Source of the DNA: Candidatus Mcinerneyibacteriota bacterium
GTDB lineage: Bacteria > Macinerneyibacteriota > Macinerneyibacteria > Macinerneyibacteriales > DSCS01
Length of the DNA: 64,000 bases
Assembly: GCA_016937175.1 (NCBI GenBank)
Contig: JAFGWL010000018.1
Coordinates: 27,649-91,648 of the forward strand
Direction: 5' to 3'
The notes under the pieces were generated by a model, which worked only from the letters and a program-made list of their open reading frames with translations, had not been told where the DNA came from and made no database searches. The position numbers and the translations under genes are program-made. Positions 57,449-63,751 of this stretch are shown piece by piece (position 1 is the stretch's first letter; each line of letters opens with the position of its first letter).

Positions 57449-57530
57449 TTTCCCTCCTTATTTCGCTTATGTTCAAGTATAAGCGGAGATAAGGAAGCTG
57501 TCAATTGTGTTAGTCTGTACAGGGTTCCCT

Positions 57531-59132
57531 TCAGAGGCTTGTTCTGAGATAAACACTCCACCGGTTTTTATTATCCGGGGAGGGCCATTCATAACGGTAA
57601 CGGGCGGAAAAGAAAAGATGACGCCCAAGATGACATGATCCTGAAGCCACCGCAGCTTTATCCCACCCGTATGCTCCTCCGTAACGAAGGTCCAGGCTCA
57701 CCCGGAAGGGATATCGGCTGTAATCCAGGCCCAGATAGATCTTTTGCGCCCGGCTGTAGTAGAGGAGGTATTCTACTGATGAGCGCCAGGAACCTTTCTT
57801 CACACGTAGCTCCAGAGAGGTGTAATAAAGGCCTCTCTGATAATGATACCGCAAGGCTTCAAGTGTTATTCCCGGCTGGAGGGCCCATCGGGCAGAGGCC
57901 CTGTATTTCAGATTGTCATCCTCCTCCTCTTTTCCATTATAGGAACGGATTGAAAGAGTGACCCTTCCCCTTGAGAAATCCTTTCTTAAGGAACCTTCCC
58001 AATAGGAATCGAGCTTCCCCCGGACTGAATCCGTCAAGGGAAGTGCCACTCCCCTGTTTTCATAAAACAGAGCCCGGCTCTCGATCTCCCGTCCGGTGTG
58101 TATCAGTGCTGCCTGCCACGCTCCTCTCTTTCCATCGGTCACCAATTCTCCCTCAAAAGAGAAAGCCGACATCATGTATCTCCACCCCACACTCCCCAGC
58201 CGGTACACCTTATCTTCTTTTTCATGGTAAAGGCCTGTCAGAGCGATTCCCCCTTTTTCCCCCTTCCAGGAGGCCTCCCCGCCCACACTCTCTGTGGTAA
58301 TCACCCGTTCACATTCAAAAACGTCATACTCCTCTTCTTCCTCGACCAGGAGAGGGATCTTCTCTCCTTTTTTGAACCGCGAGTAGAGGACTCTCCCCTG
58401 AAAGGGTCCCCGGCTGAATTCCACTGCCGCTCCTTTGAAATATTCACGCCCACCCGTCTCTCCCCTCAGCCCTTCAGGAGAACGGAGGCTTCCTCCGCAA
58501 ACAGCCAGCCCCTGGGCAAAATGGGCCTTAAACGATCCCGCCAGCAGAGAAAACTTGTCCCTCTTCCAGCTGAGGTACCAGTCTTCCGGGACGATTCCCT
58601 GCGTGACCTTTTTCAGCCGGTATTCAGCTCCCGGAAGGAACTCAGCCCGGTCCCGGTAATCTGCACGCACCTCTCCCTCCAAAGAGCCTACAGATAGAGA
58701 GGCCCGAGATGAGACAGAATCCCGGTCTGCTGAAGTCCTGATACTTCCTTTTACTTTACGTATCCAGCCGGCCCTGACAAAGGGGCGGATCAAACTAAGG
58801 GTGCGGCGTGTGACCAATTGCTCCGACAGGAGCTGGCTCAAAGAAAACAAGACTCTTTTCCGGCAGAAGGAACGGATCCGCCGGGCCTCTTTTTCGTTCA
58901 GATAGGGAACGGCTTTCAATTCAGACAAAGTCGCTGTGTTCAGGTTCACTTTGTCCCTGTAGAGTGATAGCAGCTCTTCCAAAGCCATTCCCTCGAAATA
59001 TCCCTCCTCATAATACCGGATCAGCTCCTCTTCGCTCCGGATATCCAACTCATAGGGAAGCGGAAATCCCGCTGCCCGGCAATAGAAGAGGATTGTCAGG
59101 GCCCAAAGTAACAGGATACACCTCGTCACCAT
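57531..59132 (-). CDS. Helix-hairpin-helix protein with large C-terminal beta-barrel-like region
   Basis: Signal-like N-term; ComEA-like HhH KVNLNTATLSELKAVPYLNEKEARRIRSFCRKRVLFSLSQLL; C-term alternating aromatic strands ending RYRYEWPSPDNKNRWSVYLRTSL. Confidence 0.75.
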   Translation of the reverse strand: MVTRCILLLWALTILFYCRAAGFPLPYELDIRSEEELIRYYEEGYFEGMALEELLSLYRDKVNLNTATLSELKAVPYLNEKEARRIRSFCRKRVLFSLSQLLSEQLVTRRTLSLIRPFVRAGWIRKVKGSIRTSADRDSVSSRASLSVGSLEGEVRADYRDRAEFLPGAEYRLKKVTQGIVPEDWYLSWKRDKFSLLAGSFKAHFAQGLAVCGGSLRSPEGLRGETGGREYFKGAAVEFSRGPFQGRVLYSRFKKGEKIPLLVEEEEEYDVFECERVITTESVGGEASWKGEKGGIALTGLYHEKEDKVYRLGSVGWRYMMSAFSFEGELVTDGKRGAWQAALIHTGREIESRALFYENRGVALPLTDSVRGKLDSYWEGSLRKDFSRGRVTLSIRSYNGKEEEDDNLKYRASARWALQPGITLEALRYHYQRGLYYTSLELRVKKGSWRSSVEYLLYYSRAQKIYLGLDYSRYPFRVSLDLRYGGAYGWDKAAVASGSCHLGRHLFFSARYRYEWPSPDNKNRWSVYLRTSL

Positions 59133-59905
59133 GTGATACCCACCTCGGTGGAAATATAACGTGGTAAAACCCGCGGCACGACATAAGCCAGCTTAAGAGA
59201 AAAGGCTCCCCGGGCCAGGTCCAGGATACAGCGGTGTTCTCCGTTTCCTGTATTGAGCCCGTATCCAAGGGAGAGCATAGGGCTTAATTCATAAAAGAGG
59301 GAGATGACTCCGTAGGAGTTCCCTTCATGGGTAGAGGCCCCTTTCACAAAGAGATGCAATGGCGGACGGTGGAAAGCTCCTCCTGCTACAACCGTATGGG
59401 TGACCTCCTCCTTGAGGACAGGATGTTCTCCGTTGAGAATGCTGACATGGAATCCCAGAGAATCCACCGACCAGACAATTCCCAGATCCCAGGAGAAGGC
59501 ATACAGAGCCTCCTCCATTAGGACACCATACAGGCATTTGAGGCCCACGCCTCCACGAAGGCCTTCAGCCAGGCGAAAACTCAGGGACAAAAGCCCTTCA
59601 TTCTCCTGAAGAGGCCTTTTTTGATACTGACGAAGCAGGATACCCCACCGTATTCTCTCTCCGCCTCCGGACCAGGCAACTGTTTTCAAGTCCAGTTCTC
59701 TGAACCCGTACTTTCTGCTGTATAGGGCTCCCATCCGGCTTTTTCCACTGATAAGAGCAGGGTTCTCCCGGAACACAGCTACCGAAGCCCCCGGCCCCCA
59801 TCTTCCGGTCAGCCCGGAGACTCCCTCATCGGCATAGAGGAAAAAAGCCTTTGAAGAATGCACCAGAAAGAGAATACAAAAGAAGAGAAAGCCCGCGCGT
59901 CTCAT
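59126..59905 (-). CDS. Putative outer-membrane protein
   Basis: Signal-like RRAGFLFFCILFLVHSSKAFF; barrel-like; 7-nt overlap with downstream gene. Confidence 0.6.
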   Translation of the reverse strand: MRRAGFLFFCILFLVHSSKAFFLYADEGVSGLTGRWGPGASVAVFRENPALISGKSRMGALYSRKYGFRELDLKTVAWSGGGERIRWGILLRQYQKRPLQENEGLLSLSFRLAEGLRGGVGLKCLYGVLMEEALYAFSWDLGIVWSVDSLGFHVSILNGEHPVLKEEVTHTVVAGGAFHRPPLHLFVKGASTHEGNSYGVISLFYELSPMLSLGYGLNTGNGEHRCILDLARGAFSLKLAYVVPRVLPRYISTEVGITW

Positions 59906-60288
59906 TCTTTGTCTTGAATATCCTGATCGATCTTGTTGCGCAAACCGGAGATCATTTTACAGATCCCGACAGCCTCATCCTCCAGGGCACGCCCTTCTTC
60001 TTCTTCAAAGAGGCCTGTTTCTTTCAGAAGCCCGATAAAATATTTCGCTCCCGCCGCCCGGGCAAAGGCCCGGTCAAGCGAAGGGCGGAACTCTCCTTTC
60101 CCTGTATAGGCCCCTTCGATCAGAGCGATATTCACTCCGGTTCCGTATTTCAGAGCTTCACTCACCAGAAACCGTTCTTCAGCCTGAACCCCCTTTCTTT
60201 TGTCGATCAGCCTGACATTGAGGCCATGGGCTTTTTTGAACAGGTCATACTCTTCGATAGGTTTCATCTTCACTCCTTTCTTTGTCAA
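59902..60288 (-). CDS. Four-helix-bundle (S23/IVS-protein-like) protein
   Basis: YDLFKKAHGLNVRLIDKRKGVQAEERFLVSEALKYGTGVNIALIEGAYTGKGEFRPSLDRAFARAAGAKYFIGLLKETGLF; 4-nt overlaps on both sides. Confidence 0.65.
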   Translation of the reverse strand: MTKKGVKMKPIEEYDLFKKAHGLNVRLIDKRKGVQAEERFLVSEALKYGTGVNIALIEGAYTGKGEFRPSLDRAFARAAGAKYFIGLLKETGLFEEEEGRALEDEAVGICKMISGLRNKIDQDIQDKE

Positions 60289-62408
60289 TAGACGATAAAT
60301 GTCTTTTGGATATTTCCCGGCTCTTCTCCCTGCCGGAAAGAGACTAAAATGATATAGCGCCCTCGCTTCCCGGGGAGAGGAAGGGCTATCTCCCCCTCTC
60401 CTGCAAGGTAGACTTCTTTTTTTGAATGTCTGAACCCTGCTGTATCGAACAGAAAGATTTCGACTTCCGTCATACGATCCAGATAATAGGCCAGTGGCAA
60501 TGCCCCCTCTTCCAGGGGAACGGCTTCCGGTAAGTGAAAGCTCACGTTTTCCCCGACAGGGTCCATGCTACCTGGAGTCGCTCCAGCCAGCATCCAGACT
60601 CCTTGGCGATATTGAAATGAAAGGGTTTTATCAGGCTCCTCAAAAAGAAACGGGCTGATGCCGGCCTCTCTCAGAAAAGCAAAGTCGTCTTGTTCCCCGG
60701 GGCTCATCGCCTTATATTTTTCCCTCCATGCAAATGCGTCCACGACCCTCTCTCTCCGCAGGAGACAGGCTTGGTCTCCCTGTGAACTCAGAGATAAATC
60801 CTTGAACAGGATAACCTCGCCGGGAAAGGCGATCTCTTTCGGGAAGGCCGTTTCTCTATCCAGGTCTGTCAGGATATAATCAAAAAAGAGGGCACCCCGC
60901 CCTTCGGTCCCGTCATCCAGGATCAGGCATTCCACATACTCCTCCTCAGTAAAAGGAGAGACTTCCCGGAGCAGGATTTTCCGCTCCCCGTTCAGCATCC
61001 CATCCACGCGGTTGACTCCTCCCGGAGTGGGAGTCTGAGTGCTGTAGAAGTTCTCCGCCCCCGACGGCTCCCGGGGCATGATCCGTTCAAAGGAGGCCGG
61101 CCGATCACCAGAGTACCAGTCTGACCCGAATTCCACACGGTCGCAGACACTCTCTCCCAGAAAGAGAGAGACGATATCACCTGTATCATTCAGGGAAGGA
61201 AAGGAGGAGATCTCCACAACGGGAAGCTCCTCCCCCCAGAGCGAAGAGAAAGCCACTTTATCCTCTGTCAAAACCAGATAATCATCGAAATGCACACGTT
61301 CTGCTTCAAGGGGCACACTTCCGGTGTTATCCCCCAGGGACATCCCCCGGAGAGTCACTTCCCCACCGGCCAGAGACCGCACTTCGATCCATTCGGGAGC
61401 CCCGAAAGGGGCAAACTCTGAGATCCGGACACTTTCGGGGCCCGGAAATGACAGGGATACTTCGCCGGGGCCCGAGACGGAAAATTCCTTATAGCGCCCG
61501 ATGAACCCTTCTACACATGCATAGACGCTGTAATCCCCGGGGTAGAGCTCAAGGGCCGTATTCTCTTCCACTACCCCGGTGAAGATATCCGTCCCCGCAC
61601 CTACAATGGTGACCTCCGCTTGCCCAAGGGGAACTCCTGCATTGTCAAAAAAACGGAATGTGACAGCTGACGGATCCGGCAGAGCCAGTTCCACATCCCG
61701 GCAGTAATCTTCCAGGAGAAGGAGAGTATCCCTGTAGAGGACATCCCCGTTATAGCTGATTTCCATAGTATAAGTAAAACCTGCGCTCAACCCCGAGACT
61801 CTCCAATGTCCTGTACACGGGCCGTTGTAAGCTTCCTCCCCCTCCCGGAAAAGCCGCCCCTCTTTGACAGCTGTATCCGCAAAATCAAGAAAGATCATCA
61901 GGTGAGCTTCTCCCGGAGTCCCCCCGGGTTCCGTCCCGTATTCCCAGAACCCCTCTGAGTAGAGGAGGATGGTATTGTCTTCTGCCTCTCCCTCATCAGC
62001 GGGATAACCCCTCTCTGCCGCGATAACCCCGGAGCTGTCGGCGACCGCCAGTGAGCCGCCCCCGTTCACCAGGGAGAAGGAGGCCTCCACGCAGGGATAC
62101 TCCTCTCCCGGAGCATCCCCCCAGACCCCGTTTTGGTTCCCGTAGGCCGAGGCAAAGGAGTCCTCTCCTTCAGCCTGACGGACGATCACGCCACAGGAAT
62201 AAGCATCAAGAGTCATGGAAAAAGGAGACCCGTTCACAGTCCAATCTTCCATGATGAGGAGATCGGGGCTGTTATTGTAGAGCTCGATCCATTCGAGCCT
62301 GAAATCCGAGTGGGAGTCGGGGTCTGTCATCACCTCTGTGACCGTCAAAGAAAAAAGCGGGGATACTGTACAGATAAGCGTAAAAAGAAAGGCCCCTGTT
62401 TTCAGCAT
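60285..62408 (-). CDS. Secreted lamin-tail-domain (LTD) protein
   Basis: VTEVMTDPDSHSDFRLEWIELYNNSPDLLIMEDWTVNGSPF plus a second LTD-like VRISEFAPFGAPEWIEVRSLAGGEVTLRGMSLGDNTG. Confidence 0.82.
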   Translation of the reverse strand: MLKTGAFLFTLICTVSPLFSLTVTEVMTDPDSHSDFRLEWIELYNNSPDLLIMEDWTVNGSPFSMTLDAYSCGVIVRQAEGEDSFASAYGNQNGVWGDAPGEEYPCVEASFSLVNGGGSLAVADSSGVIAAERGYPADEGEAEDNTILLYSEGFWEYGTEPGGTPGEAHLMIFLDFADTAVKEGRLFREGEEAYNGPCTGHWRVSGLSAGFTYTMEISYNGDVLYRDTLLLLEDYCRDVELALPDPSAVTFRFFDNAGVPLGQAEVTIVGAGTDIFTGVVEENTALELYPGDYSVYACVEGFIGRYKEFSVSGPGEVSLSFPGPESVRISEFAPFGAPEWIEVRSLAGGEVTLRGMSLGDNTGSVPLEAERVHFDDYLVLTEDKVAFSSLWGEELPVVEISSFPSLNDTGDIVSLFLGESVCDRVEFGSDWYSGDRPASFERIMPREPSGAENFYSTQTPTPGGVNRVDGMLNGERKILLREVSPFTEEEYVECLILDDGTEGRGALFFDYILTDLDRETAFPKEIAFPGEVILFKDLSLSSQGDQACLLRRERVVDAFAWREKYKAMSPGEQDDFAFLREAGISPFLFEEPDKTLSFQYRQGVWMLAGATPGSMDPVGENVSFHLPEAVPLEEGALPLAYYLDRMTEVEIFLFDTAGFRHSKKEVYLAGEGEIALPLPGKRGRYIILVSFRQGEEPGNIQKTFIVY

Positions 62409-62563: not shown

Positions 62564-63559
62564 TTAAAGGGCCCTGTAAAAAGCCCTGATTGTAAACTCC
62601 CGGTATTGGGGGGCGGCAAGTCCTGAATACTTTTCTAAAGTGATTTTTTCGATAGCCTCCTCTTCTGTCATCCCCTTTTCTTTGGCATTAGCGACCTCTT
62701 GGCGGGCATACTCAAGATAACGCGCAAAATCCCTGAGGCCTTCTGTCCCCCGCACCACAGGGCCGTGACCGGGGATCACCGCAGCATAATCTTTTTCACT
62801 CTCTTCTTTGACGATTTTCAGGAGATTCATGGCATCGCCGCCTGAGCGGATATCGATATAAGGGAACATCCCGCTGAAGAGGTTGTCTCCGGTGATCAGG
62901 ATATTCATCTCCTCAATACGGACCATGGCGTTACCGTTGGTATGGGCCGGGCCGGGGAAAAAGAAGCGGACCGTGTATCCACCCAGCCGGATGGTCTTTT
63001 CTTTATCAAACGTCTCGTCGGGATAACGGAGAGTAACACTCTTATAAGCTTCCAGTCTCTTTTTCGCTGCTTCGACCTGAGCTTTGGCTTTTTGCACCTC
63101 CTCATCGTTGACTCCTTCATTCTGAGCAATATACTCTTCCATCTCTTTGAAATACTTGGGATAGCCCACTTCGATGACATGCTTCCTGTTGACCTCTTCG
63201 ATGTTTTTCAGGTTTTCTGCCGTCATCTTTGTCGCGATGACAGGGACATCGGCCGGCATGGCGCTAAGTCCGTAAGAGTGATCACTGTGATAATGGGTAA
63301 GCAGGATAACTTTGAGGGGTTGATCCGTAAGCTGGGCAATCTCCTTGAGGACAGTCTCTCCGTCTTTCCGGGTATTCCCGGCATCGATGAGCAGGACACC
63401 CTCTTCTGTAATGAGGACAGTGATGTTTCCGCCAAGCCCCTGGATCACATAGAGGTTGTCGTTCACTTTCTCCACGTGGGGACCGTCTGCAGCCATAAGC
63501 ATTCCTCCTGTTCCGAGAAAAAGAAGTGTCATCACCATAAGGACAACGAATTTTTTCAT
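62564..63559 (-). CDS. Secreted metallo-beta-lactamase-fold hydrolase
   Basis: Signal peptide MKKFVVLMVMTLLFLGTGGMLMA; THYHSDHSYG (HxHxDH); ITGDNLFSG; IPGHGPV; start set at ATG 63559 after AGGAGG. Confidence 0.88.
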   Translation of the reverse strand: MKKFVVLMVMTLLFLGTGGMLMAADGPHVEKVNDNLYVIQGLGGNITVLITEEGVLLIDAGNTRKDGETVLKEIAQLTDQPLKVILLTHYHSDHSYGLSAMPADVPVIATKMTAENLKNIEEVNRKHVIEVGYPKYFKEMEEYIAQNEGVNDEEVQKAKAQVEAAKKRLEAYKSVTLRYPDETFDKEKTIRLGGYTVRFFFPGPAHTNGNAMVRIEEMNILITGDNLFSGMFPYIDIRSGGDAMNLLKIVKEESEKDYAAVIPGHGPVVRGTEGLRDFARYLEYARQEVANAKEKGMTEEEAIEKITLEKYSGLAAPQYREFTIRAFYRAL

Positions 63560-63751
63560 AGATCCTCCTTTGAACCTGTAATAATTTTCGTCCATTTCAG
63601 GACAAATTCAATAGAACAAAAGTTTTAATTTACCTTTTGGGAAGCGAAACTTTAGTTTGAGACGGGGTTATAATGTCTCTCTTATGGGACGGGAGAGATC
63701 CTAGCATAAAAAAAGATTGAAAAAGGACTCAATCAACGACAGAAGGAATGA

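Follow-up and report, generated by a model that had tools for sequence, protein, structure and literature searches.

A four-gene cluster of Candidatus Mcinerneyibacteriota that pairs an HhH-bearing barrel with a FadL/PorV-like barrel: a candidate outer-membrane DNA-handling complex

Introduction

How DNA crosses the outer membrane is an open question in transformable Riemerella anatipestifer (Bacteroidota), in which an HhH protein, an outer-membrane barrel and a DUF5689 protein (RA0C_RS02645, RS04915 and RS04920) are needed for transformation and have no homologues in the known outer-membrane uptake machinery (PMC8459023). Here we describe a cluster of four genes, encoding P0001 to P0004, in a 64,000-nt stretch (the window) of contig JAFGWL010000018.1 from a Candidatus Mcinerneyibacteriota genome. 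Likened by description, the Riemerella set shares with this family an HhH protein, an outer-membrane barrel and DUF5689, the last of these occurring in a paralogous cluster, while the Riemerella HhH differs in lying at residues 236-301 and is predicted to be periplasmic (PMC8459023).

Two better known systems offer further points of comparison. P0001 shares with ComEA an HhH_3 domain, and its family profile matches solved ComEA chains, but here the HhH is fused to an outer-membrane barrel and has lost its GhG motifs, and the host carries a separate canonical ComEA. The pairing of a large barrel with a small barrel of PorV/FadL fold recalls the SprA-PorV translocon of the type 9 secretion system (T9SS), from which P0001 differs in its approximately 22 strands, its HhH, the linkage to ComEC in several lineages and the lack of any SprA domain in our searches. 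The extracellular nuclease ExeM contains a lamin-tail domain (LTD); P0004 has this secreted domain in common with ExeM-type nucleases but differs in that Pfam finds no nuclease domain in it. Our literature search found no description of such a barrel pair or domain combination, with one DNase paper featuring an HhH surfacing.

Results

Gene layout

The ORF list of the window contains the four minus-strand genes that the first-pass annotation had placed at 57531-62408 (Table 1). That annotation had also proposed a coupled operon with overlaps of 7, 4 and 4 nt, of which the 7-nt overlap (59126-59132) and the first 4-nt overlap (59902-59905) stand, whereas the third, between P0004 and P0003, requires a TTG start of P0003 at 60288. 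The P0003 homologue of the same genus begins at the equivalent of an internal ATG at 60267, which is preceded by a good Shine-Dalgarno sequence (AAAGGAGTGAAG-ATG); this ATG is the probable start, so that a 17-nt gap to P0004 is likelier than an overlap. Because a strong promoter-like site, a consensus match only, sits between P0001 and purH, the operon probably ends at P0001. In the one same-genus genome compared, the order LTD, four-helix, small barrel and HhH-barrel is kept, the HhH proteins are about 50% identical, and purH and purD follow the cluster as they do here. The secreted MBL-fold gene reported just upstream is indeed present and is kept upstream in the same genus; given the gap of 155 nt to P0004, and a transposase-like gene that separates the MBL and LTD genes in the same-genus genome, it is probably outside the operon.

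Table 1. Features of the cluster and its flanks (window positions)
Feature	Position	Strand	Basis
P0001: signal peptide, HhH_3 (residues ~60-120), ~22-strand beta-barrel (126-532)	57531..59132	-	Pfam, AlphaFold2, PDB fold matches, family HMM
P0002: 14-strand FadL/PorV-like outer-membrane barrel, predicted P0001 partner	59126..59905	-	Model and fold matches; upstream homologue in 61/80 family loci
P0003: four-helix bundle (TIGR02436/23S IVP-like)	59902..60267	-	Family matches, same-genus homologue, Shine-Dalgarno
P0004: secreted, two lamin-tail domains, C-terminal region weakly FlgD_ig/T9SS sorting tail-like	60285..62408	-	Pfam; LTD neighbours in other lineages
Sigma-70-like promoter TTGACA-17-TATACT, between P0001 and purH	57476..57504	-	Consensus match only
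Secreted MBL-fold hydrolase gene, SoxH-related, upstream of cluster	62564..63595	-	ORF and family matches

The HhH-barrel protein P0001

The HhH_3 domain of P0001 (PF12836, residues 60-120) scores just over the Pfam cut-off, and the AlphaFold2 model, run with 55 sequences, comprises helices at residues 31-118, those of the HhH at pLDDT >90, followed by about 22 long strands up to residue 532 (mean pLDDT 71, pTM 0.51). Nearly all of the best 50 PDB fold matches are outer-membrane beta-barrel proteins (LptD, ushers, BtuB, porins) with low TM-scores, so strand number and barrel closure are approximate. The many amphipathic strands, together with a signal peptide judged by eye, fit an outer-membrane beta-barrel, closure lying beyond the quality of the model. 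By sequence search the barrel had no relative in the PDB; the full-length comEA model TIGR01259 gave 14.3 bits, below its cut-off of 152.35. PHROGs and PADLOC gave no match.

The first hairpin of P0001 reads YLN in place of GhG, and among about 113 relatives with an HhH fused to a large barrel the second glycine is found in 0% at HhH1 and ≤2% at HhH2. The net charge of the domain has a family median of -2 and is +8 in P0001 itself. With the GhG DNA-binding hairpins lost, the earlier expectation of ComEA-type binding of dsDNA is unsupported for the HhH of this family. Since the hairpin glycines are lost across the family, we surmise that the HhH on the large barrel may have a structural or contact role, in which case DNA would be held by the partner barrel, by ComEA or by the pore.

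P0002, P0003 and P0004

P0002 is modelled as a 14-strand barrel (pTM 0.73), and its best PDB fold matches are chain F of type 9 translocon structures, which we take to be PorV, and then FadL; strand number and fold match together give the FadL/PorV-like assignment. Its sequence had no NCBIfam match at E up to 1, and hence none to a PorV family model. P0003 scores 19.9 bits against TIGR02436, under the cut-off of 24 yet with a clear full-length match, and also weakly matches PF05635; among the lineages compared it was found in such a cluster in the same genus only, and it is probably a hitchhiker. P0004 carries two LTD stretches (PF00932, 39.7 bits vs. a cut-off of 34.3) and ends in a tail weakly similar to FlgD_ig and T9SS sorting tails. 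These results bear out the first-pass reading of the products as a secreted HhH domain joined to a barrel-like region, a second putative outer-membrane protein, a four-helix bundle protein (by weak matches) and a secreted lamin-tail protein, with structure prediction and Pfam yielding both the barrel and the HhH whose absence had been named as grounds for dropping the proposal.

Family distribution and barrel pairing

A two-sequence P0001 profile found relatives in diverse genomes and a 17-sequence profile many more, at full length; a search with PF12836 alone was uninformative, its best matches being mostly long frames, presumably Tex, that are not P0001 relatives. A GTDB contig scan with a profile of five closer members, in which two peptide patterns gave the confirmed loci, yielded at least 401 of them. 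The 80 kept for analysis of neighbourhoods span KSB1, TA06, Ignavibacteria, Gemmatimonadota and Bacteroidota (such as Pedobacter, Emticicia and Pontibacter), the last of these predominating. A P0002-type barrel of about 275 residues lies just upstream of the P0001-type gene in 61 of these 80 loci (in three of the 61 as the next gene but one), no other neighbour family occurring in more than 11; it is also found at -1 or -2 in 18 of 38 further loci. Of 31 lineages, 8 have a same-strand LTD gene within 6 kb, vs. 0.39 expected (7/30 without the window); LTD genes are near-absent beside the 80 mostly Bacteroidota loci. Co-conservation of all four genes, put forward earlier as a refuting test, was thus seen for the HhH-barrel, the small barrel and the LTD gene, but not for the four-helix gene, confined as it is to the genus.

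Linkage to ComEC

In seven Pedobacter loci, ComEC is the next gene downstream of the P0001-type gene. In the G064 family, Bacteroidota-like by sequence, the HhH-barrel occurs in 89 of 111 genomes, and 77 of the 87 having both genes carry ComEC directly downstream. The Competence domain starts a median of 726 nt after the barrel match ends, a distance accounted for by the N-terminal DUF4131 portion of ComEC. In genome G244 ComEC likewise lies directly downstream, and in G210 it is three genes away, these genomes belonging to two distant lineages; Pfam confirms the identity of ComEC in four linked proteins. Taken together, the linked cases perhaps count as three or four independent lineages rather than 80 separate events. 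Most family loci outside these lineages do not have ComEC adjacent. Its mere co-presence is uninformative because ComEC is near universal (261/280 genomes); G148 and G192, near-complete genomes with the barrel, gave no ComEC match. The ComEC linkage, seen as gene order in several lineages, speaks for a role involving DNA.

The partner barrel bears one or two canonical GIG-hairpin ComEA-type HhH at its C-terminus in about seven genomes. In G244 a single row of genes encodes two LTD proteins, a pair of small barrels, of which one carries two HhH domains, the HhH-barrel and ComEC. There are also paralogous, type-2 clusters, in which a tandem-HhH barrel of 760-850 residues sits beside LTD or DUF5689 proteins and 5'-nucleotidases; the order in three genomes is small barrel, tandem-HhH barrel, second barrel and 5'-nucleotidase, with LTD or DUF5689 upstream in two.

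Competence and secretion genes of the host genome

The statement that no ComEC or canonical com gene is in view applies to the window but not to the genome, which encodes a short ComEC, ComEA, a ComF-like protein and type IV pilus components, PilQ among them. We considered the barrel as a stand-in for a missing secretin in the host and rejected this, as PilQ and PilMNO-like genes were found. Because the host has PilQ, ComEA, a ComF-like protein and a short ComEC, the complex would be an addition there rather than a substitute. Two PilMNO-like sets are present in the 1.9-Mb genome, on contigs C71 and C35, and both include a secretin (758 and 424 aa).

An SprA_N match was obtained in 11 of 17 genomes checked, located away from the barrel loci and weak in the host. 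The host match (contig C27:20282-20656; 23.8 bits, below cut-off) lies in a 1692-residue open frame, which is possibly a divergent type 9 translocon of this lineage. In each of G060, G138 and G119, a small HhH gene, which could be RuvA or ComEA-like, lies ~2-3 kb from the SprA_N match.

Discussion

The reading that we rank first, and to which we give about an even chance, is that the operon encodes an outer-membrane DNA-handling complex. P0001 would be the large barrel, its HhH domain facing the periplasm, and the FadL/PorV-like P0002 barrel would pair with it; exported P0004 may act at the surface, e.g. as a receptor associated with DNA or with a nuclease. The barrel pair would help dsDNA or fragments to cross the outer membrane, after which these would be handed to ComEA/ComEC. 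The domains, the barrel folds, the P0002-P0001 pairing, the LTD linkage and the ComEC linkage in several lineages come from sequence or model; the union of both barrels in one complex, DNA as the substrate and the direction of transport are our inferences. The first-pass proposal of a surface complex binding or importing DNA is upheld insofar as domain structure and ComEC linkage support DNA handling, and is weakened by an HhH without GhG hairpins. We further postulate, tentatively and with more doubt than belief, that HhH-barrel and PorV-like partner together make up a secretin-independent outer-membrane DNA channel for ComEC that is widespread in Bacteroidota and other phyla.

The fold of P0002, closest to the presumed PorV chain and then to FadL, could instead point to a T9SS-related export or anchoring module, with P0002 in the role of PorV-like shuttle, the LTD protein as cargo bearing a C-terminal sorting tail, P0001 as anchor or translocon barrel and the HhH as a structural element. 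FlgD_ig-like tails end the LTD partners in most lineages, that of P0004 being weakly similar, and the SprA_N matches, weak one in the host included, are in keeping with such a module. We nevertheless consider it unlikely, as it leaves the ComEC linkage and the canonical HhH fusions on the partner barrel unexplained, most Bacteroidota loci carry the two barrels but no LTD gene, the SprA_N matches are at other sites in the genomes, and P0002 is without an NCBIfam match.

The type-2 clusters, with their 5'-nucleotidase and upstream LTD or DUF5689 genes, raise the prospect of nutrient scavenging rather than transformation, in which DNA fragments or nucleotides are taken up and the LTD/DUF5689 proteins and 5'-nucleotidases serve extracellular digestion, in line with the LTD of ExeM. 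As the window cluster is without a nuclease or nucleotidase gene and the ComEC linkage points to strand import, we hold this to be improbable. An ordinary outer-membrane porin pair of unspecified solute, with the HhH a leftover fold for protein contacts and the neighbours there by chance, would accommodate the lost GhG motif, a domain acidic across the family and barrel-bearing genomes without ComEC, but is likewise improbable given neighbour statistics far from chance.

On the preferred reading of a DNA-handling complex, the operon may represent an unrecognised route for DNA through the outer membrane. A large family of HhH-barrels, otherwise known by a generic HhH domain match alone, now has partners and a candidate role that can be tested, and a conserved barrel pair abutting comEC in dozens of genomes makes the question raised by Riemerella, how DNA crosses the outer membrane, directly testable.
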